The position numbers and the translations under genes are program-made. A model generated the notes under the pieces. The model saw only the letters and a program-made list of their open reading frames with translations, did no database searches and was not told the origin of the DNA. A DNA stretch of 64,000 bases from Malassezia japonica (lineage: Eukaryota > Basidiomycota > Malasseziomycetes > Malasseziales > Malasseziaceae): contig NC_083375.1 of NCBI RefSeq assembly GCF_029542785.1, forward strand, positions 62,001 through 126,000, in the 5' to 3' direction. Every line of letters begins with the position of its first letter. The stretch's first letter is position 1. This document shows, piece after piece, positions 4,229-63,400 of the stretch.

Positions 4229-5072
4229 TTAGGCGAGTCCGGCCGACTTTTTGTACGCCTCGTGCTCTTTCGTGTAGGTCTCGTAGTCCGACTGCGCCTT
4301 GGACTCAAACGGATGCTTGTCCGACGCATTCATCGCCTTCCACCGCTCGCCCGCGAGCTTCGCCAGCTCCTGCACCGGGAGGTGATCGTGGCCGTTCTCG
4401 CGCAGGTGCTGCACGTAGAGGAAAAAGGCACCGGGGGGACGCTTCGGCGCGGCAGGGTCCTTCAGGTTGCTCGGCACCGACTTGCCGAGCTTGCGCTGGT
4501 GCGCGTAGTACAGGTTCTGGCGGCGGATCGCATCGGGCGTGAGCGAGTCCTGCCACTTGGCCAGGTCCTTTTCGTACTGCGCCTTGGCCTTTTCGGCCAG
4601 CTCGTCAATCCGCGCACGCTCCGCCGGCGACAGCGACTTCCACTCGGCACCGACAGCCGTAGTGATCGCCGTAACGTCCACCACACTCTTGCCGCTCGCA
4701 GGCGAAATCTTGCGGTACTCGGTCTTCTCCTTGAGCTGGGGCAGGCGCTCGGAGAAGTAGATCAGGAACGACGAGCGGCGCGTCGGCTTGTTCTCCATAG
4801 GCAGGGGCACTGGGTCAGCGAAAATACGTACACAGCTTGCCGTTCGTGTCGCGGGCCTCCCACGGCTTGTCCTTCTTCGCCTTGGGCTTCGTCTCCTTCT
4901 TGGCAGGCTTGGTGGCCTTGGGCTTCGGCGAGGCACGCTTGGGCTTCGTCTCTTTGGCCGTCTTGGGCAGTTGCAGGTACGCAGTAGTCGAAAGGGGTGC
5001 ACGCACCGCCATCAGCGGCACGCGGGCCAGCAGGGGGCGCGCGCTTGTCCGCAGCACGAGCCTCGAAAACAT
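4229..5072 (-). CDS. ABF2: Mitochondrial HMG-box protein, Abf2/TFAM-like
   Basis: Two exons (5072-4832, 4809-4229) around a 22-nt intron at 4810-4831; the join gives K-L-L-P-L-P-M-E-N-K. The predicted protein has 273 residues. The N-terminus (MFSRLVLRTSARPLLARV) is a typical mitochondrial presequence. A Lys/Pro/Ala-rich linker precedes two HMG-type segments: residues ~85-170 (SSFLIYFSERLPQLKEK...) and the clearer box at ~200-270 (PKRPPGAFFLYVQHLRENG ... GERWKAMNASDKHPFESKA). Two HMG boxes behind a presequence is the Abf2/TFAM plan, which packages and maintains mtDNA. The identification rests on architecture; the first box is weak. It is divergent from the 5'-nucleotidase gene, with a CACGTG between them. 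Confidence 0.8.
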
Positions 5073-5146
5073 CGTTCTCCACTCAATGTGGCGTGGAGAC
5101 CAAACACGTACCTGTGCGTATCCGGCGATCCGCACGGGCAATGTAC

Positions 5147-5152
5147 CACGTG
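5147..5152. promoter_or_regulatory. CACGTG palindrome in HMG/5'-nucleotidase divergent promoter
   Basis: CACGTG within GTACCACGTGGCAC, in the 118-bp space between the start codons at 5072 and 5191. Such E-box-like sites are bound by bHLH proteins of the Cbf1 class in fungi; binding here is inferred. Confidence 0.5.
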
Positions 5153-5190
5153 GCACTTGCATGCGTGCGCACAGACAACCTCTCGCCGTG

Positions 5191-7563
5191 ATGGCGGTCC
5201 ACCTGCCTGTGTTGCACTTTAATGAGTAGGTCGACGCGCTGACGCAGTGTATACCGTGTGCGTCAAAAGGTGAAGGGTATCGAAAAGGCGCTGGGCGCTG
5301 ACCAGTTCGCCGCGAAAATCAACGCGATTCGCGAGACGTGGGGCGAGAAGGACCAGCAGTGCCAGCGCTCGGTGCCTTCACAGCCGTTTGTGTGGGACGA
5401 GCACGCCCAGCGCGACCGGAAAGGCCTTTGCGTCTTTTCGGGTGACCTGTACAACCCTAGCGTCGAAAGCAGCATCACGCGCGGGGCGCATATGGTGCCG
5501 GTAATTAACGCCATGCAGGTCGACGTCGCCTGCTTGGGAAAGTACGTGGTTTGGCTCACACAGCCACGACTGGGACTTTGGGTATCCCCATCTTCAGACA
5601 CTCATGAGCCAAAACAACTTTCCGTGGCTCTTTTCGAACGTCGTCGACGCGTCTTGGCGCGAAGACCACAGCGAACAGACGCCCAAGATGGATCCGCGCG
5701 ACCAGCAGATTCAAGATACCCTGCCTTATTTTATCATGACTGTACAAGGCATCAAGATCGCATGCATTGGACTGGTGGAAGAGTGCGTCGCCCTACTAAT
5801 GCAGAGAATGGCTCGATACCGTACCCGGCTTTCCGGACCAGTTTGAGTACCGCTCCATGGTCGACGTAGCAATGCACCTGTCCAAGGAGCTGCGTGAAGG
5901 CGAGGAAAAGGTCGAGCTCATTATTGCGGTGACACACTGCCGTATGCCGAACGACGTCGACATTGCCAATGCGCTCGGCGCCGTGCGCGACACGGATCCT
6001 TCGTCCCACGGCGTCGACCTTATCTTGGGAGGGCACGACCATATCTACTACGTGGGACGCGGCGTGCACGAGTACCAGGGTGCGGACTACTCTATGGACA
6101 TGCCAGGCGCCGAGAAGGACAAAAATACGTTTCTGATCAAGAGCGGAACCGACTTTCACGACCTCAGCGAACTCGAGATTGTCTTGTCCGAGCCACAGGA
6201 CGCCGTGCGCCGCCGCACCATTTCTTCGATCAAGGTGCAGCGGCATGAAGTGCTTCCCAGCGACCCATCATTGCCGCAGCTCGAAGAGATGCTTGACCAC
6301 CTCATGTCCCGCATGAGTAAGTCGATTGGCCAGCCGGTTGCCTACTCCCTGACAGAGTGGGACGCACGGGCACGTTCTGTCCGGATGGACGAGTCGCCCC
6401 TTGGCGACTTTATTGCCGACATTATTTTGATTTCCATGGAACGCTCGCTGCGCATGCAGCGCGCGGTCCACGCACCCCTCGACAAGGAAGAGCGGGCGGC
6501 CGACTGCTGCCTCATCTGCGGCGGCTCGCTGCGTGGCGATTCTGTCTTTGGGCCAGGCGAGATCACACTCGCCAACCTCCTCGAAATCATGCCGTTCGAG
6601 GACCCGATCATTGTCAAGGAGCTCACGGGCCAGGATATCTGGGACGCGCTTGAAAATGGCTTTAGTGCGTATCCCAAGCAAGAGGGCCGCTTTCCTCAGG
6701 TCGCCGGCTTGCGTGTCGTATGGGACTCGTCCAAGGAGCCAAACAAGCGCGTCGTGAGCGTCGACTTGCTCCAACAGCCATTCGACGGCGAAATTGGCAC
6801 TTCGAGCGACAGTTTGCGCATGAAGTTCCGCGACCAGTATGTGTTCGTCCCGGGAGACGAGAACGAGGACGACGACGTGGTCACAGTGCACCGCGCTGCT
6901 GCCAAAGTCAAAGAGCCGCTGCAGCTGGACAAAAAGTACCGCGTTGTGACACGCTCCTACCTCTGTGCTGGGAACGACGGATATACCGCCCTTACGCGCG
7001 GCAAGTACATCATCGACCATGAGGCCGGCGAGCTGATGTCGACGATTGTGCGCAAGTTTTTGCTGGGCGCGACTTATATCTGGCGCTGGAAGCAGCTGCG
7101 TGCACAGGCGTCCGCGGAGAATGACACAAGTTTTGCATCCGACACGACTGGTACGCCTGATGTCAGCTTCGACACCACGGCGGGCTCGTTGCGTGAGCAG
7201 GTGCAGCGCAAGGTTCACTTGTCGTCCAAGACGGACACGGCCGTGCAACGCGCGGTCGACCTCACACATATGCCCGCACACGGCGCGCCGCCGATGAAGC
7301 GCCGCTCGAGCCTGCAACCCCCGATTGTCGTCGACAATAGCCCTGTTGCGATCCGCGATGCGCTGTTTGTTGCGGGGCACGAGCATCACTCGTCGTATGA
7401 CTCGGCGTCTAGGGCGTACTCCTACGACCGCAAGAATCTAAACGACAATGTCTCGGTGGATACCAAGGCTGTTGAGCAACAGGCCCGCCAAGGCGCTGAC
7501 AACCTCGCTGTTGTCCTTGCAATGGCCGACGGACGCCTGGTGGATTCTGCACGAGCCTCGTGA
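5191..7563 (+). CDS. 5'-nucleotidase-family metallophosphoesterase
   Basis: Four exons (5191-5225, 5248-5541, 5564-5782, 5805-7563) separated by three introns of exactly 22 nt; 768 residues. The first 35-nt exon supplies MAVHLPVLHFND, completed by VYRVRQ in exon 2, which is metal motif I of the family. Further motifs are SGDLYNPS, GNHDWDFG (split by intron 2), AVTHCRMPND and GGHDHIYYV. The phosphoesterase domain spans ~5-235 and the 5'-nucleotidase C-terminal domain ~275-460, with the substrate-stacking region near LCAGNDGYTALTRGKYI. No signal peptide or membrane anchor is visible, so a cytosolic nucleotide phosphatase is more likely than an ecto-enzyme. The tail after ~480 is low-complexity. 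An in-frame ATG at 5161 would add 10 residues. Confidence 0.88.
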
Positions 7564-7579
7564 TTCATAGGTATATGTA

Positions 7580-9712: not shown

Positions 9713-9777
9713 ATGACCCCACGTGGCGGTGCAGAGCGCTCGCGGGGTATTGGCTCCACGTTGGGCTATGCACGTTG

Positions 9778-10902
9778 CTACGCAGGCTCCTGGACTGTGC
9801 TTGCAGGCCACCACGTTGGCCTCCATGCGTGTAGCTGGGCCGCATGGTCACCCACGCTGACCGCGAGGTGCGGCGCGTTCTCCTCCTGGTGCGTTTTTTC
9901 CTCCTGCTCCATGCGGAGCAAGGCCAGGCCGATATTGTGGATGCCGCCGATAAACTTGCCTGCGGAGCGCGAGCGTCCCTGGCGATTCTCGGTTTCGTTC
10001 GAGGCCTCGGCCGCAATGAGGCGCACGTCTGTGCCGTGCTCTGGCACGGCGGTCCAGTTGGTGTCGATCGTAAAAGGTTCAGGGGCGCTGTGTCAGCAAT
10101 AGTACGTACGTCTCGCCGACATTGGTCAGGGCGACCGGCATCACGCGCTTGCGCACGAGGCCCGTAAAGTAGGTGCGTGCGGTAAGCTCCTGCCCGATGT
10201 AGCACCCCTTGTGGAAATCGACTGTGTGAGGAAAGAAAGAGACGTACCTCCGTGCATATAGTCAATACAACTTTCGAGGGGTAAACTCGAGCCGTTCACG
10301 AGCTCGTCTGCGCCTTCCGGTACGCCGTTGAGCATGCGGTGCACCGTGTACTCGTCAAACGACACTGTCGTGCCCGACACCGGCGCCTCGGTACCCGCGC
10401 GCGCCAGGACACGCCAGCCCATGTCCGGCGTGCGCACGTCACGAAAAGCGAGCGCCGCGTCGCCCAGATCGCCCTGTGCATTCGGTCCCCAGGCCTGGTA
10501 TACGTCCCACTCGCTGCTCACGTCCGTAATCTTGACCTTGGAGCGCAGCTTGAAGCGCCGGATGAACTTGAGCAGCTCGCTTGCGATTTTCTCGTCGACC
10601 TCCATGAGCAGCGACGGCTCCTGCGTATCAGGCAAGAGGTACAGGAACGAGTCGGCAATGACGCGCCCCTGCGGAGTGAGAAAGGCCGTGTAGAATGCGT
10701 CGCGCGCCGGTGTGCCGTTCTTGTGTGCGTCTTCGAGCGTCACGACATTGTTCGTGACACTTCCCTGCAGGAACTTGAGCGTATCGCGCCCCTCGAGCGC
10801 AACTATGCTCCTTCGTGGAATCTGTGTGATTGATGTCTGCACCGCTGCCGTCGACAGGCCGCGCACTGCGCCCGGCACGCCCCTCGCCACCGCTCGTAGC
10901 AT
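9778..10902 (-). CDS. IBA57: Mitochondrial Fe-S cluster assembly factor IBA57 (GcvT-like)
   Basis: Three exons (10902-10248, 10221-10110, 10087-9778) with introns of 26 and 22 nt; 358 residues. The diagnostic [16 protein letters not shown], the folate-binding-fold signature of the IBA57/YgfZ family, appears only after splicing intron 1 (CIDYMHG joined to VDFHKGCY). The N-terminus [20 protein letters not shown] is a good mitochondrial presequence; an ATG at 10932 would add ten residues. IBA57 acts with ISA1/ISA2 in maturation of mitochondrial [4Fe-4S] proteins. [20 protein letters not shown] near the N-terminus also fits. It lies head-to-tail with LtrA, with 65 bp from its stop to the preferred LtrA start. 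Confidence 0.88.
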
Positions 10903-10964
10903 GTCTGTGCACGGTAGTCGCTGACTCAGCATTCCGCGGTCTCCGCGGCACGACGCCGATCCTC

Positions 10965-12989: not shown

Positions 12990-15900
12990 TTAAAGTTCAT
13001 CGTGCGCGACGGATGCGTCGCTCGGCGAGCCAAGAGGGGGGGCGCTGGCCGCCGTATGCGCGTCGCTCGACACGGCCTTCGGCGGGACAATCTCGGCGTG
13101 TTTCTCGGCAAGGGACGCGGCGAGCGCAGCGACCTTGGCGTCGAGGATATTCCACTCGGGGATCTGCCGCCGCGCGCGGTCGAGCTTCGGCTCCTTGGTC
13201 TTGGGGTTGCTGCACAGATCGATGGTCTTGGCCTCGGGCAGCCAGTCGTGCGAGCACCACGTCTCGCACCACAGCCAGGTCTTGTCGAGCGTGTGGATCG
13301 GCAGCTGGAATTGCACTGGGTCAGTAGGCGCACGTACAGTGGTTGGGCAGGTCCTGGTCGAGGTTCGCGAGCGAGTTCTTGTCCGCCGTCAGCTTCTGAT
13401 ACTGCCGACGAAGCAGATCGCCGGCGGCGACGTAGCGGAAGCGCTGCAGATCCACGACGTACAGCGCGGAAATATGGTAGGTGCGCCCGCGCAAAAAGTT
13501 GCGCCAGTAGCCCTGCTTCCAGAAGCGGAAACCGTCCATGTCCTCGCTGTCGTCGCCCATCGGAGGATAGCCGTACGGCGCTGTGTGAGTAGATATACGT
13601 ACCTCCTTCCAAGTCCATGTCCACCAGCTCCTGGAGGTCGGCACGCACAATCTGGTCGGCATCCACAAAGATTACGCGGTCCAAGTCCAGGGGGAAGAGC
13701 ACGTCGAGGAATAGGATCTTGTACGCCCAGATCGTGCGCTGCTTTTCCGTCTGCTCACGCAGCCACTTGGGCCATGCATAGGTAATGAGCTCGTACTGGA
13801 ATCCGTACGCCTCGGCCAGGTGGGGGATAAACGCTTTGAACGACGGCGACAAGAAGTTCTCCACAAACCAAAACTTGACCGAGCTCTTGGTGTGCTCCAG
13901 GACAGAGAGGACCATGATGTAGGTCATACGCTCGTACAGATGGCCGCTTGCCAACGTAAAGATATTGATATCCGCGTGGCCGCCCCGCCGCGAGCGCGCA
14001 AGCGACGAGGCAGATTGCGCAGGCGCATCCATCTCGGCGACCAGGTCCACGTCCTCCTTGCCGGGGCGCTTCTCAAACACGGGGTAGATCGTCTTGCCGA
14101 GCAGCGCATCGAGACGCAGCGCAGGGCCGGTCTGCTCCACTGCCGGGCTCTGCCAGCCAAGCGCACCGACGCTCTCGATCTCGTACAGGTCCGCGCTGCG
14201 GCCTTCACGGATCCGCAGATTCCACCGCCCAGGCTGCGCACGGAACTGGAAGTAGCCCATACTCTCCATGACGATCGTATCGAGCGCCTGGCTCCCGTCC
14301 TCGGTCTCGAGCACAAGCTGCAGACCGTGGGGGATGCCACTGTGCTCCGTACGCGCATGGCCCTCGACTAGCAGGCTCTGCACGGAATACACGGCCTCGA
14401 CGCCGGCCTCGCGCGCAGCGGGGGCAAGGTCCGCGAGGCGGATATTGTCCAGGTCGTACACCGCCTCGTCAGCCATCGTGACGAGCGTGCGAGGCGCCAG
14501 CAGCTGCATGGTCAGGACGGCCTGGGGAGGAAGCAAGGCAAAGTCGACGCTCGGCGCACGCTCCCTGCCGCTCTCGTCAAAGGCAGGACGCAGCCGTGCG
14601 TCAAAGTGCGTAAACTGCTGCAGTGGCAGCGCCGGCTGCCGGAACTTGGGGTTCAGTACCACCGTTACCTTGACATCGTCCATCGCCGCGAGCATCTCGA
14701 TAGCGGCTGTCGCCGACGGCGCGTGCGCTGCCAATGGGTCGAGGATGAGCGTGACATGGATCGACGCTTCGTTCGCGCCGGCCGTAAAGGCGGCGGGCGA
14801 GTATTGCAAGGCGGCGGCGACAGCGTAGCGTGTCGGGCGGATCGCCTTGTAGATGCCCTCCTCGGCATGGTTCACTGCAAAGGCCGTGCCGAGGCCGGCG
14901 AGCACAAACTCGATGGCCTGCGACTGCATGTCGCGTGCCTCGTCCGAGACATCGAGCGTTGAAAGAAGCGGCGCGACATGGCGCTCCTCTTCCCACTGGC
15001 TGGCAGCGATGATCTCTGCCGCATCGAGCTCGTCCATATTCTCTAGCCTGACCACCATGCCGTTCACGAGAAGTGCGGGGCTGGCTGTGCCAAGAACACG
15101 CACAAACGGTTCACTAGCCACCTGCCAGAACTCCGAGGCGCCGCTCGGAGAGAGCGTGAGGCTGTGCTTGGCTGCAAGCGCAGCAAGCGTCTCGTGCTCG
15201 AGCGCGCCGCGCAGCTCGGCGGGCGGCAGCGTGCCGAGGAGCCCTTTTGTCTGTGCCGCATAGAGGAACTGGGACACTTCGCCCGACCCACCCGCATGCA
15301 CGAATCCGACGCGCACCGCCGTAGTCTCGGCAGCCGCAAGCGCGTGTGCGACCAGCGCTTTGCCAGTCGTGCTGTCGAGGTCGCCGACGATGCGGATCGT
15401 CACGTTCGACGCGTGCGCATCGTGGTAGACGAGGTCGCGCAGGATATTCGTCTCTCCCCCGACGCTGCTCTCCCGGATCGACTGGAAAGCGGCCGCAAGG
15501 TCGACATACGCAACCTCGCCGTCGTCGAGTGCTGCCAGCACCGCCGACGGTGTACGCTGCGTGTCGGGCAGGTCGTAAAAGTACGTCGCAATCTGCGCCT
15601 CGTCGATCGCATTCTCGTGGATATCCTGCGCAGCCAGGCGCGTAAGACCGACCTGCGTGGAGAGCGCCTCGTGCAGGACATTGTCACTGAACGACAGTGG
15701 CTGGCCGTTGAGGTACGCAGCACCATGCGCGTCGCGCGGTACACGCAGGCGGTGCAAATAGGCAAGCGTCTGCGTGAGGCGCGCGCGCATCGCGTCGTCG
15801 AGCGTGCCGTCCTTGAGGAAGCGCTGCAGTGCTTTCTGGGCGTCGGTAGGAAGCACTTTGCCAAGCGCTTTCCGTGCAGCCTTGGGATCCTTGGCGCTGG

Positions 15901-18348: not shown

Positions 18349-21300
18349 CTATTCGCGCGCCTCGGTGTACCGCGAGTCGTCGTAGTCGTCGTCGTCGTCG
18401 TCGTCGTTGTAGTAATACGACAAGCCGGACATGGTCCGCGACGAACGCGTCGAGCCACGCGTGCGGCCCCATCCCCGTCCATCGTGTGCACCAACTGATG
18501 GCGAATCCCTGTAGGAGTAGTGCGTCGAGTAGCGGTGCTTGCCGCTGGAACGGCGCGACTTGCTGCTCTTGTGCCCACTGCGGCGCTTTTGCACAGGCTC
18601 CAGCGGGACTAAGCTTTCGTCCTGCACAGGTTCGTACGCGGCGGGCTGGATCGCCAAATGCTGCTGCGAGGCCGTGGGCTGCGTCGCCCACTGGGAATGC
18701 CCAAGGTTTGGCGTATCAAAGCTCGGCGACATGTCGTAGCCGGCCGAACGGTCGAGAGGGTGCGCAGGATGCGCCGGCGAGTGCATCGACGAGAGACTCA
18801 CGTCGCCGCCTTTCATGCCATCGTGCTCGAGATAAGGGCCTTGCGGCATGAGCTGCGTCGTGGATTCGTTGCCAACCAAGTGGGCCTGCGAACTGTCGGG
18901 GCCGTCGGGGCTGCGCAGGCCCAGGCCAATCGAGTGCGGCGGGCCAAACATCATCGCCGGCGTCTCGAACTGCATCGTGGGCGGCGGCACGGGGCCAACC
19001 TCGCCCTCGCCAGCCTTTGGCGTGGTCTTTTGGCTTTTGCTCCACTTGTGGATGCGGAACAGGTAAAAGAGGCCAAAGAGCAGCGCGGTGTTGAACACAA
19101 TGTACGCGAGAATAATGCCCAAGTCGCGGAAGCGGTTCGCGGCATTCAGCTCGACGCTCGCGAGGTACTCGTCACCCGTGCGGTACTGGCAATAGGCACA
19201 GTTGCCGTTTTGCATCTGCTGATAGTAACCGATGCCGCCCCTAGGGTCACCCTGCGGCGAGGAAAAGCCGTCCAGGTACTGGTCGCACGTCTGGCCGGCG
19301 GGGGGAATAATGACCTGCATCTCTTCGGGGCGGCAAAGAACGTCGACACCACCAATAGCATTGCCGAGAATACCTTCCATAATCCACGTAAAGGGCGAGA
19401 GCATAAACATCCACGAGCGCCAGAAGTACGGCAGCAGGGGAGGAGGCTGCACCACACCACAGAACACCACGACGAACGAGAAGAAGGTCGAGAAGAGAAT
19501 CGAGGCAATCATCGCGTTCGGGCTGATCGCGGCCATGGCCTGCGCAAAGGTGCAGTAGTACAGCTGGAAGAGCATGTACAGACCCCAGCTGTACGCCGAG
19601 CGCTTGGGATCGCTGGGGAACTGGATAAAGAAGTACCATGGAATCCAGTAGATGGTGCCACCCACAAAGTTCCACGGAATCTCGACCAGCAGCGCACTCA
19701 GCACCATCACCGGCCACGTGTACAGCTTCGACGGCTTCTCACGGACTTCAAACAGCGAACGGAATCGGATAAACTCGGGTTGGAGGTGCTGCGACAACGA
19801 CGTCGAGGCGACCAGAGCCAGGAAACAGGCAAAGAGACGGTTCTGCAGCGCAATCTTGTTCTGCTCCTTACCTTGCGCCCAGAACGAGGAGCCGACGACA
19901 AGGCCAGACACGACGTTCAGGATCATCTTGGTAATCAGATACAGGGGGTTGCGCCAGTACGAGATAAAGGCACGTTTCGTCACCTCGATCAACTGCACCA
20001 TGAATGGTTGAGCGTACTCGCGCTGAGAACGCGTCGTGTCCTCCGCCACCACGCCGCGGTTGTTGTGGTGCACCTGCTGCAGTTGCTGCTGAAGCTGCAC
20101 ATACTCGGGGCTCTGCAGGAACAGGTCGTGCCAGTTGTGCTTGGTTGTCGCGGTTGCACCAGCGCCAATCACATCGAGGATGTACTCGGCGGGGTTCGCG
20201 TTCTCCTCACACTTCACTCCACTGCGATCCTCAAAGTACTTGATCAGCGTCATGGAGTTCTCGCCAGTGTCGCCAAAGTACACCGTCTTACCGCCCTTCT
20301 GCAGGAGCAGCAGACGGTCAAACTGGTTAAACAGCTCACCACTCGGCTGGTGGATCGTACACAGAATCGCCTGGCCTTCGTTCGCCAGCTTCTTCAGGAA
20401 GCGCACAACCGACCACGCGGCCTGCGCATCCAGACCCGACGTAGGCTCGTCCAAGAACAACAGCAGACTCGGCTTCGCAGCAAGCTCCACACCAATCGTC
20501 AGACGCTTGCGCTGCTCGACATTCAGGCCCTCGGCCACCTCACCAACAAGCGCCTCGGAGAACGACTGCATTTCGAGCAGTTCAATGACCGTCTCGACGT
20601 AAGCAAGACGGTCCTCCTTGGGGGTTTCACGGGGCTGACGAAGCATCGCAGAGAACTGCAGCGCTTCACGCACCGTCTGCTGTGCAAGATGCACATCCTG
20701 CTGCTGACAGTAGCCCGTGTCGGCCTGGAACGAGCGGGGCAGAGGCTGGCCGTTGACAAAGAAGTCGCCACGCACGACACCGACATTGGTACGTTGCGCA
20801 AGTACGTTGAGCAGCGTCGTCTTACCAGCACCACTCTCACCCATCAACGCGGTCATCTTGCCTGGGGCGACAAAGCCCGAAACATTGTTGAGCAGACGGC
20901 GAGGGTTGCCCTTGATCATCACGTCGTAGTTAATGTTTTCCCACGAGAAGATCGACTCAGACACCTTGAGCTGACCGGGATGCGGCGTCTGGTCGGCGGC
21001 GTGCTGCTGCGCACGCGCCTCGGCCAGCTGCGCCTCGCTCTGGTCGCCAAGCGCCTCGTTGTCGTTGTTGCGAGCCGCTTCGGTGAGAGCCTTGGAGGCC
21101 GTCGCACGGTTGTACAGCATCGTACCACCCGATGCCGCGGGGTCGATCTGCTTCTCGGACGTAACGAGGTACATGATCACGAAGAAGCCCCAGAAGCCAA
21201 GCACGATCATTGCATTGCGCACCGCATTGTCCCACGTGAAGCCGTAGGTAAGAAGCAGGTATTGTGGGCCGTTGACCTTCATCCTACCCGACTCGGCCGC

Positions 21301-23850: not shown

Positions 23851-24569
23851 GAATGCGTACCCTGTGTCTGAACCGGGTCAGGAACCAAGCAAGAGCGACA
23901 AAACTTGGAGCGGTCGGTGCCCCTTGAACTCCGGTCGCACTCGGCCGGGCGTATTTCCACGGGGTTTTTTGGAGCAACACTAGAAGTTGTGCCTGCTGCA
24001 TGCATGCCGGCGTAAATTTCTTGATTGGTCCTTGAGGCCCGATTACCTCTTGGGCCGATTCTCTGACAGGACGGCGCGAGTCCAATATGCCCGATCGGGC
24101 TGGCGGCTGACATGACCTAGCGCCGTGCGTTCGGAGTCTGCTCGCGTAGGGGCAGGGGGGCTGCGCACGCGGTGGCCCGTGACAAATCCCTGGACACAGA
24201 GTAGGGACGAATAAGCGAACAAATAGCTCTCCAACGAATTGAATAGGTAGGGGGATGCGCACGGCAAAAAACTATGGAGTTGAGCAACGAAACTTGGGCT
24301 ATATAGGCACCTGACCGGCTGACCATCACCTACCTAAAAGGGGAAGTACGCACGCCGAGACCATGCCAAATGGGGATGGCAACGGGGGGATACTAGCGAG
24401 TATACTAGGGAATAGGAAGTGACATGAGCGTATCAAGGCATCATCGCACCAACCCACGGTGAGATAAGCATAGCAATTCGCGCAGGAACGCAATGCCGCA
24501 AAAATACGTAGCATACACAGACGAATGCGGTAAATTAGGCTGCCGAGGCAAGCAACAAACTATGAAACA
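23851..24569. promoter_or_regulatory. 719-bp spacer: PDR copy 2 3' end and PDR copy 1 promoter
   Basis: No coding sequence was found. It is the longest non-coding gap in the window. It contains a perfect 12-bp palindrome GCCCGATCGGGC (24089-24100), flanked by related words GCCCGATT (~24038) and GGGCCGATT (~24052). A CTATATAG TATA-like palindrome lies at ~24299. CCG/CGG triplets of the kind bound by Zn2Cys6 dimers are frequent. The palindromic cluster is ~190-250 bp upstream of the PDR copy 1 ATG. Confidence 0.5.
24089..24100. promoter_or_regulatory. Perfect 12-bp palindrome, candidate operator for PDR copy 1
   Basis: GCCCGATCGGGC reads identically on both strands and contains everted CCG/CGG triplets. 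It lies 239 bp upstream of the copy 1 start. The function is inferred from symmetry and position. Confidence 0.4.
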
Positions 24570-46141: not shown

Positions 46142-46655
46142 ATGAGCGAGGCGCCGCGCACCGAGGGGTTTGTGCCGCATGCCTTTGCGCCTCAGGCCGA
46201 GTTCTTAGACAATACCGAGACGAATCGTGCGCGCCCCCTGACTGATGCGGTAATCACTGTGCGCGTCATCAAAAACTTTGAGTACCGCACGATGAAGGCG
46301 CTCGTGCTCCACGTCGACCTCACGACGATGACCATGGCGCAGCTGCGTGAAAAGTGCATCGAGTGTGTCAGGACGCAGCCTGCGTTCAAGGCGTACCGCA
46401 ACGTGGCGGACAAGCTCGGTACGTCTCCCTGCTGACCCAGACACGCTGAAGCTGTACACGCGCGCGCACGGCGCCAAGACGACGAACCTCATCATCAACC
46501 TCGACCACCCCGAGTGGATCTACGACTGCTCGCCGAACGGCCCGCCGCTTGCGGAGCTCGGTATTGAAAATGAGACGGAGCTCTCACTCTTTGAGCGCGA
46601 GGCGTACGATGCGTTTTTGGCGGATCCGCAGACCCGCTGGGATGCTTCTGGGTAG
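46142..46655 (+). CDS. C2orf76/UPF0538-like protein
   Basis: Two exons (46142-46418, 46441-46655) with a 22-nt intron; 163 residues. After a short leader, VITVRVIKNFEYRTMKALVL and, across the junction, YRNVADKLDTLKLYTRAHGA plus TNLIINLDHPEWIYD and LGIENETELSLFEREAY match the ubiquitin-like C2orf76 family in order and length. The biochemical function is unknown. Its ATG is only 6 nt after the stop of the sorting nexin on the same strand, so its promoter must lie in the upstream gene or the two share transcripts. Its TAG abuts the CHK1 stop. Confidence 0.78.
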
Positions 46656-48469
46656 CTATGTAGGCCGCGCAATCAGTTCGCGCACCGCAGGGTCCGCGCA
46701 CACGTTGCGGAAGAGGCGGCGCCACTCGAGGGGGTTGCCCTTGCTGCGGCGCATCAGCACAAAGCTCGGGTCGTGCTGCTGCGCGCAGTGCTCGAGCTCG
46801 GGCGGGAGCTCGGCGAGGCGCTCGATGCGCACCTCGCCCTTGAGCGCGCACTTGCGGCGGTCGACGAGGCCGAGGCGGATGCGCACGCCGCGTGCGCCCG
46901 AGAGCGGCTGCGACGGCTTCGCCTCGGGCTCCTCGCCGGTGGCCATGTCCTCGTACGCCTCTTGGAGCTCTGAGTCGTCGCCCATCGGCTCGAGGGAGAA
47001 CTGAGCCTTTTGGCGCTCGAGCGCCTGCGCCAGCGCCTGCGCCACCGTGCCCGGCTCCGCGGCCGAGTAGAAGCGCGTGAGCTGCAGCGCCATGCTTGCG
47101 CCGGTCGGCATGGCCGACGATTGTGTCTGGGTCAGCGAGGAGGCGACGTACAAAGTAGCCGAGGGCCTGGGTAAACTGCGCCTCGTCCGCCTGTGTCGCC
47201 GACTCTGCCCGCGGGCGCACGATCTGCGACTGAGCGAGGCTGCGGCGCGCGTGTAGCGCCGGCTGCGCGGTCGACGACGGGATCGACGTGTTGAGGCGGA
47301 GCGAGTGCGACTGGAGCGCCTCGGGCTGCGTCAGCGAGAGGCTCTCGGGCACCGGCGCACGCTGCCCGTCGCTGTGCAGGGCCAGCTGCACATCGCCCGA
47401 CACAATGAGGCCTTGCAGGAGGCGCTCCGCAAGCGACACGGGGTCGTTGCACTTGCCCGAGGTGAGCAGCTCGTTCGGGCGGGTAAACCAGCGGTGGCGC
47501 TGGATCTGCTCGAGCGACGAGCGCTTGCGTGGATCGGGGTGCATCATGCGGCGGAGGAGCGCTAGGTCAGTGTATCTACATACAGAGTGCGTCGCCGCTG
47601 ATGCGCGTCCAGGGGTCCATGCGCAGCAGCTCGCCGGAGAGGTAGGCGCGGTATTCCGGGCTGCGGCTCGTCGGCTCATCCCATGGGGTGTCTGGTGAGT
47701 CGTGCGTGCGACGTACTGCCAACCAAGAGTGCAAAGAGCACCACGCCCGAGCTCCATACGTCGACCGGCTCGCCGTGGTACGGCTGGCCGTTCATTTCCG
47801 GGGCAATGTACGGCAGCGAGCCGCATGTGCCGTGGAGCGTGCGTTCCTTTCCCTTGTACTTGTATACGCTGCACAGGCCAAAGTCGGCGATCTTCAAGTT
47901 GCCCTGCGCGTCGAGGAGCATATTCTCCGGCTTGATATCGCGGTGCGTGACGCCCTGCGAGTGGATATAGGTCTGGTGAGCAGCGCGACGTACCAAGCCG
48001 GCGACGAGCTGGGTAAAGTAAAAGTGTGCGAGGTCTTCCTCGACACCGACGTCCGGCGCTGCGTCAGGCACGCTACCTACCAATCTTGTCGAACAAGTCG
48101 CCGCCCGCGCCGAGTTCGAGGAGGATATAGAGGCCGCGCACGTAGTTGCTCGGTGCGGACGAGCCGATGGCGTACTCGACGGACCCCAGGAACTCGAGCA
48201 CATTCTTGTGCTTGAGGATGCTGTGAATCTGCACCTCTTTCTGGAGCGCACGCCGGTCGATCGGCTGCCGCACCGAGGTCGAGGCGTAGGACACGACCTT
48301 GACCGCCGCCTGCGGGTGCTGCGCCGACGCGCCATTCACCGCGCGAAACACGCTGGGTAAGACAGAGTACATACCGCGAGAATCCGCCGCCGCCCAGCAG
48401 CTGCACGATCTGGTAGCCGAGCACCGCCGGGTACGACTGCCCCGTGGACGACGTCGGGCGCGTCGCCAT
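46656..48469 (-). CDS. CHK1: Checkpoint kinase CHK1
   Basis: Seven exons (48469-48375, 48352-48081, 48058-47994, 47972-47717, 47691-47584, 47561-47152, 47126-46656) with introns of 22, 22, 21, 25, 22 and 25 nt; 558 residues. Spliced kinase motifs are VQLLGGGGFSRVFRAV (Gly loop), QAAVKVVSYAS (catalytic Lys), QLVAGLTYIHSQGVTHRDIK then PENMLLD, IADFGLCSVYKYKGKERTLH, GTCGSLPYIAPEMNGQPYHG and LLVGNTPWDEPTSRSPEYRA. The activation-loop and pre-APE sequence are CHK1-like rather than CHK2-like (no FHA domain), and the C-terminal half fits the KA1-type regulatory domain. The kinase halts the cell cycle on DNA damage. An in-frame ATG at 48496 would add nine residues. It is divergent from NEM1. Confidence 0.9.
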
Positions 48470-52572: not shown

Positions 52573-52573
52573 C

Positions 52574-52791
52574 TCATTTCGATCCCTTGGTCTCTTTAAA
52601 GAGCACATGGCGTTTCACTGTGTCAGGCGCCGCACGTACCGACCGGGTCGTACTTCATCATGCTCAGCTTGTCGGCCACACGTAGCCGGCGGGTCGTGTA
52701 CATGTACCCCGTGCCGGCAGTCGACAGGAGCCGCGCAATGATCACCCTGCGTCAGCCTTCGCACCTACCGTGTCTTGGATTTGGCGGCCAT
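52574..52791 (-). CDS. MRPL39: Mitochondrial ribosomal protein bL33m (hidden three-exon gene)
   Basis: Three exons of 23, 107 and 44 nt (52791-52769, 52746-52640, 52617-52574) with two 22-nt introns; 57 residues. The spliced protein reads MAAKSKTRVIIARLLSTAGT, then GYMYTTRRLRVADKLSMM, then KYDPVVKRHVLFKETKGSK. This aligns end to end with bacterial and mitochondrial bL33 (about 55 residues), including the S-T-A-G-T-G, Y-T-T and K-Y-D-P-V-V-K-R-H-V-L-F core. KYDPVV is split by intron 2. No exon is long enough to be flagged as an ORF. It converges with the DPW-protein gene (1 nt between stops) and is divergent from POM152 (33 bp, CACGTG). Confidence 0.93.
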
Positions 52792-56745: not shown

Positions 56746-58111
56746 TTAAGCGTTGCTCGGCGCGAGCTGCGTCCACGAAGAAAGGACGGGAAGACTGCTC
56801 GGCTCGAGGTCCCCTCCAAAGCCCAGGTGAGAGTCATGCGCAGGCAGGGAGGAGCTGTACAAAGGGTCGTCCGGTCCATCGAGTCCGCTAAAAGGACGCT
56901 GTTCCATATTCGCCTCGAAACCATCAAAAGAAGCCGGGGCAAGCTGCGGCGAGAGTGGGGACATGTTCATCGACATGGGGCCAAAGGCGCTCGAGCCAGT
57001 GTCGCTGACGGTATTGGTATCCACCGAAGACGGCGTGGTGGCCATCGTGCTCGGGAGTTGCGTATCGCTAAACAGTTTCAACGGCGTATCCATCGCCGTG
57101 TTCAGCTCAAGAGGGTCGACGACCGTCGACTCGCTCTCGAGCGAGGTGGCAGACAGCGCAGAAAGCGACTGCCCAAAGTCGTTCAGGTGCGCAGAGCTAA
57201 AGCCCGCGTCGCTCGGCGACATGGAGCGTTTCGTATCCATCCACGGCATGCTCATTAGCGACGGCGAGTCGGTTGACAGTGCCGACGGCGGCGCACTCAG
57301 CTCCAGCAGCGAGGGGTCGGCCGTAGAACGCAGCGAGACCAGCGAGTCTTGCTGCGGCGACATGCTCGCAGAAGAGTTCAGCGTGCCCTCCGACGTGCCC
57401 ATCGATGCAGGCATAATCCACGGCATCATTTCTTTCGTCGGGTTGCCTTGGGCGGTGGCCCATGCAGGCGAGATCGTCGCATCGGGCGCAGGTGCCGAGG
57501 CGATCATCGAGGTGGGGATATCAGTGGGGGAGGTTTGTGTCGTAACACTCATGGTAGACACGGGTATGGAGAAGGAGGGCGATTGCGCCTTGTGATCAAA
57601 AGGGATATGCACTTGCGGCATGCCCGAATTGCCCGATTTTTCCTCGCCGCTCGAGTCCGAGTTGTTGCTGTTGTTCGTGTTGCTGTGCGACAGCGTCGTC
57701 GCAGCAATACGCGCAGCCTTTCGTTCACGGCTCAGCCGCTTACGCTCGCGCGATAGGAGGTTGTCGTGCTCAGACACACGCTCGTACTCACACTTGCGCT
57801 GGAGACGTGTACACGTGTAGCACGAGGGCTGAGCGCCATCACAGCGGATTTTTCTGCGTTAGCGAAACAACATACCTGTGGCGACAATGGACGCAGGCCA
57901 TTGCGACACGGCAGCGAAACTTGTTCGAGTTGCCACGGCCATGACTCGCATCGCGCGAATCATGCTTGCCGGTCGCTGATCCTTCGCTGGGCGGCGAGGC
58001 CGAATCCTCTGACCGCGCCTTGGTATCATTGTCCTTGCTGTTATAGCTCAGCGCGCTGTGATTCGAGCCCGAGTTCGTATCGGGCATGGATGCAACATCA
58101 GATGCGGCCAT
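56746..58111 (-). CDS. Zn(II)2Cys6 transcription factor
   Basis: Two exons (58111-57876, 57853-56746) with a 22-nt intron; 447 residues. The binuclear cluster is split by the intron and complete only after splicing: C73-x2-C76-x6-C83-x6-C90-x2-C93-x6-C100 (ACVHCRHRKIRCDGAQPSCY then TCTRLQRKCEYE). A basic segment follows (SRERKRLSRERKAARIA), and the rest is Ser/Pro/Met-rich, consistent with an activation region (for example SPSLLELSAPPSAL, MSPLSPQLAPASFD). No fungal-TF middle homology domain was recognised. Target genes are unknown. Its own upstream region is long (510 bp to the next ATG) with CCAAT and CACGTG sites. Confidence 0.9.
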
Positions 58112-58621: not shown

Positions 58622-59715
58622 ATGTTAAGGCTGTCGGCGATAGCGTCATTACTCGACGCTATCGTACAGTCAGGAGGGGGGAAAGAAGAAGAGGGCGCCC
58701 ACATGGCCCTTCTTACCCTATACAATACGGCTGAACTCTATGCGTACGCCGCACGCCCTACGCTTGGCGCATCGTCGTCACGCTCCGCTGGGCTGATGAC
58801 CAGCGATATTGATACCCCCTTGGACGGCGAAGACCGCGCGCGGATCCTTTCGGCGATCGCTGTCGCGGCTTGGCGCGATCAGATGCAACCGTCGGCTCCA
58901 CCTACCTCGGTGGCAAACCGCGCCACACCGCGCAAGCAGGACATGTCGCCAGAAGTACGCACCCACAATGCGCGCCGCTTCCACTCGAGTCATCGTCGTG
59001 ACGCGTCGACCAGCACGGATACCCCGGGACGGATGTCCAACGGCGCAGGCGCCGTCCGCTTCCAAGGCAACGACGGCTCGGGCATGTCGGAAGTGGAAGA
59101 ACACTCGCCGGCGCTCGAGTCTGAGACGCTGGGCGATGCAGAAACACTCCCTTTGCTTTTGGAAAACGAAGTATGTGCTTTTTTTTTTTTTTCTAACCTC
59201 AGTACGGCCGCATGCTTGTTGTGCCCGTTTTAATTTCGGGGCTGGCCAGTGCGACGGAGTCGCGCCGATCTCACCGATCCCAACATTTGGCGCGTACGCG
59301 GCACGATCGTAGCCGGCGGCCGTCATATACCGGCTCGAGTGATGCGCCACTCGGCGGCCGTCCGGCTCGGGCGATCCTCCGATCGATGGGCGGGGGTACG
59401 GATGAAGGCACGGATACGGGTTTCTCGACAGAGGACGAGCTCGCGTCCGGCGCCGATACCGACAAAGACTCTGTGCGCTCTGGCAGTGTGGTACGGAGCT
59501 CTACTGAAATGGCAACGGGTGGCACCGTCATGCTGCTGACCCTCCACGTTCCTTGGGCCGATGGCCGCGGCCCGCCCCCCAGCGACCCTGTGGCGCAGCA
59601 AGCGTGGCAAACTTTGCAAAGCCAGGCGACCTGTTTTGCGGAAGCCAATGCGCCGGATACCTCCGCTTGCAGCTCCACTGTACTGCCACGTCGCGATACC
59701 GCCGCACGAGCCTAA
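58622..59715 (+). CDS. LAMTOR2/roadblock-like protein with large insertion
   Basis: Two exons (58622-59170, 59203-59715) with a 32-nt intron containing 14 consecutive T before CTAACCTCAG; 353 residues. The start MLRLSAIASLLDAIVQSG, then HMALLTLYNTAELYAYA, ARILSAIAVAAWRDQMQ, LLLENEYGRMLVVPVLIS and, far downstream, TVMLLTLHVPWADG follow the order of a roadblock/LC7 fold as in LAMTOR2 (Ego2-type). The blocks are separated by a ~90-residue Ser/Thr/Arg-rich insert in the middle and a ~95-residue insert before the last strand/helix. If correct, it would be a Ragulator/EGO subunit placing Rag GTPases on the vacuole for TORC1. The assignment is tentative, and exon 2 between 59230 and 59520 is low-complexity. 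Confidence 0.5.
58638..58664. repeat. Perfect 10-bp inverted repeat just inside the LAMTOR2-like CDS
   Basis: CGATAGCGTC (58638-58647) and GACGCTATCG (58655-58664) with a 7-nt loop, 16 nt after the ATG. In mRNA this would be a stable hairpin near the start codon. Confidence 0.8.
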
Positions 59716-59742
59716 TGATATGCCTGCAGTCAGCCCTAATGG

Positions 59743-59870
59743 CACGTGCGCCGTGCAGAAGATAGTTGCTTATAGCACGCGTATACCACTCCTGTATAAT
59801 TGCTATGTGCACACGCCAATTATGCAGCTGCCGCATCCACTGGCAGCGCACGGCGCACTAATACCACGTG
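59743..59870. promoter_or_regulatory. Two CACGTG sites upstream of gluconokinase
   Basis: CACGTG at 59743-59748 and 59865-59870 in the 185-bp spacer between the LAMTOR2-like stop and the gluconokinase ATG (59901). The second is 30 bp from the start. Nothing else was recognised in the spacer. Confidence 0.45.
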
Positions 59871-59900
59871 TATTTAATCAAAGTTGCCCTTGACCTGCAT

Positions 59901-60464
59901 ATGGGCGTAACCTGTGTGGTGGTGATGGTACGATGACACAGCATGTCTGACACTCGGTAGGGGGTAGCGGGCGCCGGCAAGTCGACGGTCGGCGCCGCGA
60001 TCGCCGATGCTCTTGGCGCACCGTTTCTGGATGCGGATGATTTTCACAGCGAAGCCGCGGTCGCCAAACTCGCGCACGGCGTACCGCTTACGGACGAGGA
60101 CCGTTTGCCTTGGCTGGCGCGCGTCGCACACGCAGCGCACGAGGCAGGCGCACAGTCTGCGTCTCGGCGGTGTATCGTGGCCTGCTCGGCATTAAAACAG
60201 TCCTACCGCGACACGCTGCGCGACGCCGAGGCGATGCGCGTGGTGCACGTCTACTTACGGCTTGCGCCGGCTCTGCTCCTCGAGCGCCTTGAGCAGCGCA
60301 AGGGGCACTTTATGAAGGCGGCAATGCTCGAGTCGCAGCTCGAGACACTCGAAGAGCCTTATGTAGACAAAGAGCGCGACATCCTGGTCGTCGACATTGT
60401 CGCCGACTCGTCGCCCGCGATGGTCCTCCACATGGCGACACAAGGGCTGGAAGCGCTGCTATAG
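59901..60464 (+). CDS. Gluconokinase (GntK/IdnK family)
   Basis: Two exons (59901-59927, 59961-60464) with a 33-nt intron; 176 residues, normal for the family. Exon 1 codes only MGVTCVVVM; joining gives VVVMGVAGAGKSTVGAAIA, the beta-strand and P-loop of gluconokinase. DADDFHSEAAVAKLAHGVPL and TDEDRLPWLARV (gluconate-site region), VACSALKQSYRDTLR and LLLERLEQRKGHFMKAAMLE complete the match. The enzyme phosphorylates gluconate to 6-phosphogluconate for the pentose phosphate pathway. Without splicing the P-loop frame is preceded by a TAG at 59958-59960, which is the acceptor itself. The gene converges with the CAF120-like gene, 3 nt between stops. Confidence 0.9.
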
Positions 60465-60467
60465 AAA

Positions 60468-63400
60468 TTATTCACGAGGCACGGGCCGTGCCGTGGTACT
60501 GTGACGGGGGCTCTGGTTGCGCGCCTCTTGAGCGCCGTAGCGGTGGCCAGACATGTGCGAGTCGCGCGACGAGGAAGCCGCCATGCCCGGTGCCGACGGG
60601 CCGCTCTCGGGCGTGCCAGGCGAATGGAACATGCCCGGCATGCCGTACGGCGGCATCGGCATCCCGGCAGGCATCGGCATCCCGGCAGGCATCGACATGC
60701 TTGGCGGCATCGACATACCGGGGGGGACCGGCATGCCTTGGGGCATCGGCATCATGCTAGGCGGCGTCGGCATGCCACTCGGCATGCTGGGGGGGGTCGG
60801 CATCGGTCCGCCGTGGGCTTGCGCCATGCTACATTAGTCAAGAAACGTACGCTTGCATGTAGGCCTGTTGCGCGGCCTGCATCGCCTGCTGCTGCGCCTG
60901 CTGCTGCGCTTGCATCGAAGGATACTGCGTGTCGCGGTTCTGCGGCATCACGCCCATCATCATCATCATCTGCTGCTGTTGCCAGTAGTACATGTTCATC
61001 CACATCTGCTGCTGCGATGCAGACGGCGACATTTGGCTGTGCGCCTGCGAGCTGCCACCACGCGCGGGGCTCGCCATGGACTCGCGGCGGGCGCGCTCAG
61101 CCGTGCGTCGGTCATGGGAGTGGATTGCACCCATCAGTCCGGCCTGCGGAGGGGGGGGTTTGGTCGGCATGTTGACCAGGGCCTGACCCGAACCACGCGC
61201 CTCTTGCTCACGCACCGAGCGGTCCAAACGCTCTTGCGACGCAGAGGCAAGTAGGCCTTGGGGGACCTTGCTCTGGTCCTCGGGGTCGAGACGCACAAAC
61301 GTCTGGCGAGGACGCTCGAGCTGCAGCGAGGACGAGGACCCGGTCTTGTTTTGGTACATGCCCAGACTCGAGGCGCTGTTGTTCGAGCGCATGTACGCGC
61401 CGGTAAACGCGCTCGACGGGCGGTGCAACGGCTCAGTAAATGCACTCACGGGGCGGGCCTGGTGGCTCTGTTGCGAGTACCCAGGCGACACCTCCGCCAG
61501 GGAGCCGGCCGAGCTGCTTGCGCCGAGGCGGCTGGGGGGCTGCGGCGGCGCGGCGAGGTGCGTCGCACTCACGTCGCTCTCGTCATAGTCCACCCAGTCC
61601 TGTGCGCGGCCAGAGGCAGGCACAGCGCCGGGCGCACGGCCGGGGCGCGCGTACGCGGGGTGCCCGGCTTGGTCGCGCGCCGCCTTTTCTTGCGTGCGCT
61701 TGTTGTGCCCAAAGGACGAGGGGTACGGCTCGTGCTTGGGGCTCTCGGCGCCGTACGCGTCCTCTTCTTCCTCTTCCTCGGGCTCTTGAGGAGCAGGCGG
61801 CGACGCAATACGCACGGCCGGCGTCGTGGCAATGGGTGTCACCGTCGCACGCGTCGCAGGCGCCGACGACGGCGCGGATGTCGGCGCATGGCTCATGTCC
61901 GAGCCGAGCGCAGGCGAAGTCAAAGCGCTGTGCTCGTTCATGTAGTCTTCGAGGATGCGGGTCTCGGTGCCGTCCGAGACGAGACGCGACTGGCTCGAGA
62001 CCTGGCGGCCAGGCGCCGAGGGCGCACGCAGCTCATCCTTGGCAGGCGATGTACCAGGCGATGTGTCAGCCGCCGGTGCGAGGAACGAAAGCTGCGTCGT
62101 GAGGGCCGGCGAGAGGGGCGAGATCTCGCGGTCCTTGCTAGAGTTGGGCACGGGCAAGAGTGGGGGGGCAGCCGGTCGCGTGCTGAACGGATTCGTGCTC
62201 GCGTAGTCCGAGCGCGGCTCGGATGTGCCGCTGCGCGGCGGATCTGTGAGCTGCTCGGTGATTGGCGAGAGCTCCGTGTATTGGTGTGCCGCCTGGAAGT
62301 CTGAGTTGGCCTGCGACAGGAGCGACACGTCGCCCGTCATCGACTCGCCAGACACGACACGCTCCTTGGGCTGCACAGGCCAGGGGTACACTTGCTCGTG
62401 GCGGGGGTTCACCACCGGCGCCGTGACGGTGGTGCGCTGCGCAGGCGCAAGAGGCTTGGGCGCCTCGGGCGCGGGCACCTCTGGGGTTGCGGCAGGCACA
62501 ACACGCACCGCCGCCGGTGCGGCCGCCTCACGCGAGGCACTCGTGGGTGCCGACACGGGCGGAGGAGCCGGGCGCTCGCTGCCTGCCGAGGGCTGCGCCG
62601 ACCTCTCGTCACGAGGCGTCGAGACGTAGCTCGTCGCTGTGGGGTACGACGACGCGAGCGACGAGGCGGGCGTCGCCTCCTGCGGGCGCGCCTGCTTAAA
62701 GGCACCAGCTGTCAGCGTCTGCGACACGGGGCGGGGGCGCTGGCCCTGGAAAGAGTCGCGGGGAAGTGGCGCGTCGCGCGACTCGGGCGATGGTACATTA
62801 CGGGCGCGGGCCTCTTTTTCAGCGCGTTCCCATGCCATGGCCTCTTGAGCGGCCTGCTCACGAGCCTCGGCGTGAGCACGCTGGGCTTTGCGTTGGGCCT
62901 CGTGCTCGATCTGCGCTTCGTACTCGGCCTTGGCCTTGGCCTGCGCTTCGTATTCGGCCTTGGCCTTGGCCTGCGCTTCGTATTCTGCCTGTGCTTTGGC
63001 CTGTGCTTCGTACTCGGCCTGTGCTTTGGCCTGCGCTTCGTATTCTGCCTGTGCTTTGGCCTGTGCTTCGTACTCGGCCTGTGCTTTGGCCTGTGATTCT
63101 GCCTGTGCCTTGGCCTGTGCTTCGTACTCGGCCTGTGCTTTGGCCTGCGCTTCGGCCTGAGCCTTGGCCTGTGCTTCGTACTCGGCCTGTGCTTTGACCT
63201 GCGATTCGTATTCAGCCTGTGCTTTTGCCTGCGCCTCGTACTCTGCCTGTGCCTTGGCGTCGGCCTTGGCGTCGGCCTTGGCGTCGTACTGCTGCGCTCC
63301 CACCTGTCCGTATACCTGATCAAATGCCGTGCTTGGCTCCCTGTGCCCCTCCAAAGCGGCCTGCGCTTGTTTTACGGGGACTTGTGCCTCGCGTTCGGCG

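Follow-up and report, generated by a model that had tools for sequence, protein, structure and literature searches.

Short introns with a 22-nucleotide mode and a predicted branch point at position 17 in Malassezia japonica

Introns in the genes of the window

The window analyzed here is a 64,000-nucleotide (nt) stretch of the genome of the basidiomycete skin yeast Malassezia japonica (C6:62001-126000, in an assembly of 8,433,779 bases on 9 contigs). It contains genes for UBC6, CHK1, UGGT, MCM2 and the catalytic subunit of PP2A, together with others listed in Table 1, where the names of the HMG-box-like, metallophosphatase/5'-nucleotidase-like and Zn-cluster-like factor genes were given by eye. 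According to the final run of our gene finder, the window has 27 genes with 30 introns in total, of which 23 are exactly 22 nt long.

A scan with a relaxed splice-site pattern gave 57 candidates in the window, and 38 of them were retained: 28 of 22 nt, four of 23 nt, one of 21 nt (47973-47993), four of 25 to 26 nt (at 10222, 47127, 47692 and 38151, the last with two possible ends) and one of 32 nt (at 59171). This is close to the original prediction, made from the letters of the window, which had counted 29, 4, 1, 3 and 2 introns of 22, 23, 21, 25 to 26 and 32 to 33 nt, respectively. Among the 19 discarded candidates, 10 overlapped a retained one and had an acceptor in common with it; 8 of the 9 others lay outside any gene model on the same strand, and the last was a 35-mer within CHK1 that was not called.

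The gene finder was made for the present work. It has a three-periodic coding model and a flat prior for intron length, and the two strands were run separately; a first run, which fused genes via false long introns, was replaced by the final one. The gene finder called 22 of the 28 pattern-matched 22-mers in the window. The six uncalled ones were two in the bL33m gene, two completing a Pfam domain, one at 60829 giving a longer open reading frame (ORF), and one at 36300 that is kept as a candidate. Removal of five of the six opens or extends a frame, and two of these five restore full Pfam domains. Motif and gene-model counts were also made in a 264-kb sample, consisting of the window and 20 segments of 10 kb from contig C1, where 100 introns were called in 122 genes and 55 of them were 22 nt long. 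Calls above about 30 nt are unreliable because some introns were misplaced, such as a 64-nt call at 60787-60850 and a 59-nt call in L039/L040, the latter running over a 15-nt exon together with two 22-mers. When the model was run on GT..AG ends and a flat length alone, without donor or branch terms, 22 nt was still the most frequent length (20 of 139 calls), followed by 31 nt (5 calls).

Alignment to known proteins gave residue-level support to 17 introns (thirteen of 22 nt and one each of 21, 23, 25 and 26 nt), and restored Pfam domains gave domain-level support to two more 22-mers. All five 22-nt junctions of UBC6 are gapless against the Ubc6 structure sequence. The PP2A catalytic subunit, once its 22- and 23-nt introns are removed, aligns to PP2A alpha, including the last three codons located past the second intron. 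UGGT with two introns removed aligns to the UGGT catalytic domain, and the CHK1 alignment spans three 22-mers and one 25-mer. When 42141-42162 was removed, the match to XPG_N covered profile positions 1-100 with 108.5 bits, compared to 43-100 with 45.9 bits without removal; similarly, the score for DUF2340 was 143.4 bits after removal of 46419-46440 versus 52.7 bits before. The 21-nt CHK1 segment (47973-47993), if retained, would give seven extra residues (VRRAAHQ) in the kinase domain. These residues have no counterpart in CHK1 of the PDB, in seven other named Malassezia proteins or in Thecaphora; in the M. furfur model, the gap at this place is longer. The gene for the mitochondrial ribosomal protein bL33m (57 residues, 52574-52791, minus strand) requires two 22-mers and was overlooked by the gene finder. 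The beginning of the POM152 ORF, on the opposite strand, lies beside this gene or overlaps it. The view that these segments act as introns in coding frames was thus supported by the alignments, the Pfam domains and the gene finder. Removal of the pair 36199-36221 and 36300-36321 had been taken as restoring a frame, but this was rejected on recheck since the frame is open with both segments kept or both removed; the products of this small gene match no Pfam family.

Table 1. Introns and candidate introns of the window, with branch A positions counted from the donor and tails in nt
Position	Strand	Length (nt)	Gene and feature	Evidence
4810-4831	-	22	HMG-box-like protein gene (4229-5072)	gene finder, motif
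5226-5247	+	22	metallophosphatase/5'-nucleotidase-like gene (5191-7563)	gene finder, motif, further sequence comparison
5542-5563	+	22	same gene; joins GNHDWDFG	gene finder, motif, further sequence comparison
5783-5804	+	22	same gene	gene finder, motif, further sequence comparison
10222-10247	-	26	IBA57/CAF17-like gene; A at 21, tail 5	junction gapless vs PDB 7z3h
10088-10109	-	22	IBA57/CAF17-like gene	gene finder; junction in gapped part of PDB alignment, left out of the count
13581-13602	-	22	UGGT	gapless vs PDB 7zlu
13316-13337	-	22	UGGT	gapless vs PDB 7zlu
30510-30531	-	22	Csm1-like gene	gene finder
30149-30170	-	22	Csm1-like gene	gene finder
30994-31015	+	22	UBC6, intron 1	junction gapless vs PDB 9en5
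31099-31120	+	22	UBC6, intron 2	gapless vs Ubc6 structure sequence
31217-31238	+	22	UBC6, intron 3	gapless vs Ubc6 structure sequence
31297-31318	+	22	UBC6, intron 4	gapless vs Ubc6 structure sequence
31375-31396	+	22	UBC6, intron 5	gapless vs Ubc6 structure sequence
32999-33020	-	22	Elongator Iki1-like gene	gene finder
32825-32846	-	22	Elongator Iki1-like gene	gene finder
33254-33276	+	23	MCM2, 5' end; candidate	pattern; ATG-led frame with or without removal (weak)
33570-33591	+	22	MCM2	gene finder; spliced protein matches MCM2_N, MCM_N, MCM_OB
36300-36321	-	22	small gene; candidate	motif only; no match in Pfam or PDB
36199-36221	-	23	same small gene; candidate; A at 18, tail 5	motif only; no match in Pfam or PDB
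37374-37395	-	22	PP2A catalytic subunit	gapless vs PDB 2ie4
36619-36641	-	23	PP2A catalytic subunit, ahead of last 3 codons (YFL); A at 18, tail 5	conserved PDYFL terminus restored
37918-37940	+	23	NDUFB8-like gene; A at 17, tail 6	gene finder
38151-38172 or 38151-38175	+	22 or 25	NDUFB8-like gene	both alternative ends leave frame open
42141-42162	-	22	XPG-like nuclease, 5' end	removal completes Pfam XPG_N
46419-46440	+	22	DUF2340 gene	removal completes Pfam DUF2340
48353-48374	-	22	CHK1, intron 1	gapless
48059-48080	-	22	CHK1	gapless
47973-47993	-	21	CHK1; multiple of 3; A at 17, tail 4	homology
47692-47716	-	25	CHK1; A at 21, tail 4	gapless
47562-47583	-	22	CHK1	gapless
47127-47151	-	25	CHK1, 3' part; A at 20, tail 5	gene finder; outside PDB-aligned domain and outside the 17
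52747-52768	-	22	bL33m	frame and homology
52618-52639	-	22	bL33m	frame and homology
57854-57875	-	22	Zn-cluster-like factor gene	gene finder
59171-59202	+	32	T-rich spacer; A at 26, tail 6	ORF much longer on removal; absent from final gene-finder calls
60829-60850	-	22		ORF extended on removal; gene finder chose 64-nt alternative with same donor

Intron length and branch-point geometry

The distribution of intron length was examined over the whole genome with a strict pattern (GTACGT-n-CTGACNCAG, 16 to 46 nt) and a reversed-pattern control. There were 715 matches, located on all 9 contigs, versus 4 in the control, which gave 0 for the 23-nt form. By length, 569 matches were 22 nt, 66 were 23 nt, 79 were 24 to 46 nt (by subtraction) and only one, a 17-mer, was 16 to 21 nt. 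The peak at 22 nt first seen in the window therefore holds genome-wide. The original prediction had described the introns as quantised at 22 nt; the dominance of this length stood, but the distribution is one-sided, with a floor and a tail, rather than one of quantised lengths. In the 264-kb sample, 17 matches to the strict pattern compare with 82 to a looser one, so about 2,700 introns of 22 nt may be expected in the genome as a rough figure.

In the sample itself, we used a GTRNGT donor with a CTNACNYAG branch-acceptor, which at 22 nt gave 22 pairs in the window and 43 in the 200 kb of contig C1, and a slightly looser version, GTRNGT..CTNAYNYAG. The looser pair was found 82 times at 22 nt versus 0.1 times on average across ten simulated third-order Markov sequences. 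At other lengths, it was found once at 18 nt, not at all at 19, 20 and 21 nt, and 5, 2, 5 and 2 times at 23, 24, 25 and 26 nt, respectively, the Markov expectation being about 0.1 or less for each length. The 55 gene-model 22-mers have the donors GTACGT, GTATGT, GTGCGT or GTAGGT, a CTNAY branch word in 54 cases, and AG ends. GTRNGT..CTNAYNYAG fits 50 of the 55, consistent with the earlier statement that nearly all of them have the same donor and acceptor motifs. By their sequence, they have the characters of U2-type introns: GT..AG ends, a donor able to pair with U6 and U1, and a branch word able to pair with GUAGUA of U2. U12-type introns have an RTATCCTT donor and a TCCTTAAC-like branch word; the donor and branch words found here differ from both, and this type was rejected.

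We then considered the position of the predicted branch A. In the 264-kb sample, it was at position 17 in 91 of 166 motif combinations, and the tail following it was 5 nt in 82 of these 91, in agreement with the earlier estimate of about 17 nt from the donor and 5 nt from the acceptor end. No excess over a reversed-donor control was found in this sample for a branch A nearer than position 17 (13 combinations with A at 10-16 versus 19 in the control). With A at 18-23, the tail was 3 to 6 nt in 26 of 29 combinations; the conclusion on the tail rests on gene models because the reversed-donor control has the same tail bias. Gene-model introns below 22 nt hold A at 17, namely, a 20-mer with a tail of 3 nt and a 21-mer with a tail of 4 nt, and the CHK1 21-mer does likewise. 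A also stays at 17 in the 23-mer at 37918, where the tail is longer. Among the introns of 23, 25 and 26 nt that homology supports, A lies at positions 18 to 21 and the tail measures 4 to 5 nt. A genome search for GTACGT..CTGACCAG at 15 to 26 nt gave two matches, one of 21 nt with A at 17 and one of 23 nt with A at 19. Overall, the tail from branch to intron end is about 5 nt (3 to 6 nt), and about 2 nt separate the branch word from AG. Judged from the motifs, two constraints operate: the fixed quantity is the donor-branch spacing, with A at 17, together with a tail of about 5 nt, and longer introns mostly gain length before the branch. The length of 22 nt would thus result from the minimum donor-branch span plus a near-constant tail.

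The introns have a fixed short branch-to-AG distance and lack a polypyrimidine tract, as in the class with fused branch and 3' sites. A tract shifted upstream of the branch was also considered and rejected: no clear enrichment of T was found in the spacer (25% T in 22-mers, 32% in introns of 23 to 26 nt and 20% in those of 27 to 48 nt). The spacer of 59171-59202 is a T run before the branch point, and a few longer introns have T or C runs there. Paired 22-nt motif matches surround candidate microexons of 15 and 18 nt at C1:63943-64001 and C1:481746-481807.

Spliceosome components and explanations of the short span

The genes for the U2 and U6 small nuclear RNAs (snRNAs) were found with 123 and 81 bits, respectively. 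Both have canonical boxes (the branch-pairing GUAGUA and ACAGAGA), and altered U2 or U6 boxes were therefore rejected. For U1, a search with the Rfam model found none, nor did it in control genomes. U2AF1 is encoded by an intronless ORF of 250 residues, of which residues 3-176 align to the U2AF 23 kDa subunit (E=8.7e-80). In yeasts, loss of U2AF1 has been linked to different branch-to-3'-site distances, according to the available text of PMC8496845; as an intact protein is present here, such a loss was rejected. The part of SF1 that was read contains the C-terminal part of SF1-HH, KH and zinc knuckles. The conserved start of Cwc25 reads MGAGDLNMKKSWHP.

The large subunit of U2AF (L031, 1480-2943 on contig C9) is identical to MJAP1_004289 over 487 of 487 residues. 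Its best piece scored 224 bits, under the family cut-off of 310, and only RRM2 reached Pfam; the RRM1-RRM2 region aligns to human U2AF65 structures. We compared the RRM1 aromatic residues (RNP2 third position, RNP1 third and fifth positions) in 111 homologues (P0241-P0351). In human U2AF65, these positions contact pyrimidines. All three aromatics were present in 79 of the 82 gap-free outgroup proteins (11 further outgroup rows with gaps were set aside) but in none of the 18 Malassezia or Malassezia-like proteins, among which two aromatics remain in 6, one in 9 and none in 3. By comparison, two of the three corresponding positions of RRM2 are aromatic in 18/18. The linker Trp, the residue through which U2AF65 binds U2AF1, is kept in 17 of the 18. 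Loss of RRM1 aromatics together with a kept Trp would fit introns that leave no room for a polypyrimidine tract. A spliceosome tuned to one geometry, with changes to be sought in U2AF, SF1 and U2 snRNA, had been proposed earlier. The change in the large subunit of U2AF, found in all 18 proteins, agrees with this proposal, but U2AF1, the SF1 domains and the U2 and U6 boxes appear canonical, and the length is not quantised.

It is probable that the introns of M. japonica are ordinary U2-type spliceosomal introns reduced to the shortest length that its spliceosome can handle, with RRM1 of U2AF65 relaxed. On this view, U6 and U2 could not occupy the donor and the branch site together over a span of less than 17 nt, and deletion-biased drift would stack introns on this floor. 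Without a polypyrimidine tract, SF1 and U2AF1 would read the 3' end as one fused branch-AG word; U2AF65 would be retained mainly as a scaffold, leading to the relaxation of RRM1. According to the available text of PMC6692369, the human donor-branch minimum has been put near 50 nt, since 15 nm separate the U6/donor helix from the U2/branch helix in the B complex (an estimated 52 nt or so), and assembly on one human pre-mRNA was abolished at 35 nt. A 17-nt span falls short of this distance, so assembly in M. japonica would have to be more compact or differently timed. A bolder proposal, which we put forward tentatively, is that polypyrimidine reading has been abandoned: RRM1 of U2AF65 would be a dead RNA-binding domain serving as a scaffold, SF1 and U2AF1 would read the branch-AG word, and the B complex would tolerate a 17-nt span that cannot bridge the human 15 nm, implying a compact early geometry unseen in known structures.

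Other explanations were weighed against that of introns shrunk to a floor set by a modified spliceosome. Deletion-biased compaction could have reached a universal physical minimum with no specific change in the spliceosome, the decay of RRM1 being a side effect or a coincidence. The canonical U2/U6 boxes, SF1 domains and U2AF1 are in line with this explanation, but we find it rather unlikely because 17 nt is not a universal minimum: human assembly fails at a donor-branch distance of 35 nt, with an estimated need of about 52 nt (PMC6692369), and Stentor gets down to 10 (PMC9505925). A molecular ruler, with which the spliceosome would measure 22 nt or the donor-acceptor distance and refuse both shorter and longer introns, could account for the 80% of strict-motif matches (569/715) that are exactly 22 nt. 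It is a poor candidate, given the one-sided distribution and the fact that either the gene finder or homology places 20-, 21-, 23-, 25- and 26-nt introns with the same signals in coding frames. Since lengths above 22 nt are common and those below are not, a two-sided ruler was rejected. Finally, the 22-mers might not be spliced but eliminated as DNA, bypassed in translation, or artefacts of sequencing or assembly. Uniform short inserts in ciliates are indeed eliminated DNA, but the spliceosomal character of the donor, branch and acceptor words, the canonical U2 and U6 boxes, the variable spacer, and the occurrence of matches on all 9 contigs far above the reversed control make such an origin highly implausible.

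Several points weigh against the explanation by a shrunken intron and a relaxed U2AF65. Removal from the mRNA is implied for 17 introns through protein alignments, the branch A is placed by its motif, and the genome-wide tally uses one strict motif that fits only 9 of the 55 gene-model 22-mers. Where tail length is concerned, the reversed-donor control lacks independence because real introns are among its 3' halves, and the 22-mer/23-mer pair at 36199-36321 has neither frame nor homology support. Among the 18 U2AF65 proteins, 6 are named Malassezia and 12 were assigned by score rank, and the RRM1 changes in all 18 probably reflect one ancestral change. One or two RRM1 aromatics are retained in 15 of the 18, so RNA binding may be weakened rather than lost, and the third RRM2 position (RNP1) has lost its aromatic in 14. 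The decay of RRM1 could also have causes unrelated to introns.

Comparison with other lineages and effects on gene annotation

The following comparisons are drawn from the available text of the reports cited. As in other ultrashort uniform introns, lengths in M. japonica are narrowly distributed and piled near the minimum; however, they are not below about 22 nt as in the Stentor, mikrocytid and nucleomorph type (15 to 21 nt), the shortest called being 20 to 21 nt and the mode 22 nt. The 15- to 16-nt introns of Stentor coeruleus are similar in their near-uniform length and 5-nt tail past the branch A (10 + 5 versus 17 + 5 here), and U2 branch recognition and U6 ACAGAGA are conserved, with U2AF1 and U2AF2 homologues in its table (PMC9505925). 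Stentor differs in having the branch A at 10-11 instead of 17, without a strong branch consensus whereas CTNAY is strict here, and its Cwc25 lacks the conserved N-terminal glycine plug, which is Gly2-Gly3-Gly4 in humans (PMC9505925). The Cwc25 of M. japonica reads MGAG here. Mikrocytid introns of 16 to 17 nt also vary very little in length (16 nt in 217 of 224) and have conserved motifs, but they number 224 and are served by a reduced spliceosome with 17 to 19 proteins identified (PMC10245619), whereas those of M. japonica are probably in the thousands, and both U2AF subunits and SF1 are present. Paramecium introns are tiny and stereotyped, with a median of 22 nt in P. caudatum; unlike here, about 98% of those of P. 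tetraurelia are spread across 20 to 30 nt, and splice signals are weak (PMC5485702). Introns of Yarrowia, Trichomonas and Giardia have the branch a fixed few nucleotides before AG and no polypyrimidine tract, as here (PMC2483917, PMC6679479), but these lineages are intron-poor and Yarrowia introns are long (PMC2483917). Lineages with very short introns have been described as having degenerate signals, and the short and strict introns of E. cuniculi and T. vaginalis occur in intron-poor genomes (PMC2483917). The combination of short, numerous and strict introns in M. japonica runs against this pattern.

Very short introns have been stated for Malassezia, with a median of 30 nt in an RNA-seq-guided annotation of M. 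restricta, a mean of 76 to 79 nt in M. globosa, and a mean of 68 nt and a median of 40 nt in M. arunalokei; no 22-nt mode or floor is stated in the available text of these reports (PMC7426719, PMC9241646, PMC6473144, PMC4634964). The open-licence literature searched mentions neither the exact 22-nt mode nor the floor with A at 17 nor the U2AF65 change, but the 22-nt mode may be reported in a 2017 study of M. sympodialis by Zhu et al. or elsewhere. Ultrashort uniform introns are thus known elsewhere and very short ones in Malassezia. The result bears on the structural question of how short a span a spliceosome is able to bridge. With a 17-nt span at roughly 2,700 sites, strict signals and mostly canonical parts, the floor becomes testable residue by residue, and the U2AF65 change is a specific candidate. 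Gene-replacement protocols exist for Malassezia, according to the available text of PMC7426719.

It had been claimed that every retention event shifts the frame. This is true for 22 nt, which is never frame-neutral, but not for the 21-nt CHK1 intron, a multiple of 3 that is open and would add 7 residues. Retention had also been suggested to feed nonsense-mediated decay. When 47 of the 22-mers were retained in silico, a stop was reached in 30 cases no more than 150 nt past the intron start, in 14 of these while still inside the intron; in 4 cases, there was none before the gene end. Among non-22-nt introns of 20 to 48 nt, 6 of 29 are multiples of 3, too few to judge avoidance, and some of the longer calls are probably misplaced. 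The pair at 36199-36321 (minus strand) has full splice motifs, and its joint retention (45 nt) leaves the frame open, so that double retention may be frame-neutral here.

At the site of intron 5, the public UBC6 proteins of M. caprae (P0005) and M. equina (P0024) contain 8 and 9 additional in-frame residues (24 and 27 nt), which look like introns that annotation failed to remove. The public CHK1 of M. furfur (P0130) lacks a stretch between two intron sites. This gap and the UBC6 inserts are probably annotation errors caused by tiny introns, and Malassezia proteomes may contain many such errors. Apart from these genes, two adjacent intronless genes for PDR-type ABC transporters lie at 18349-29582 on the minus strand of the window.

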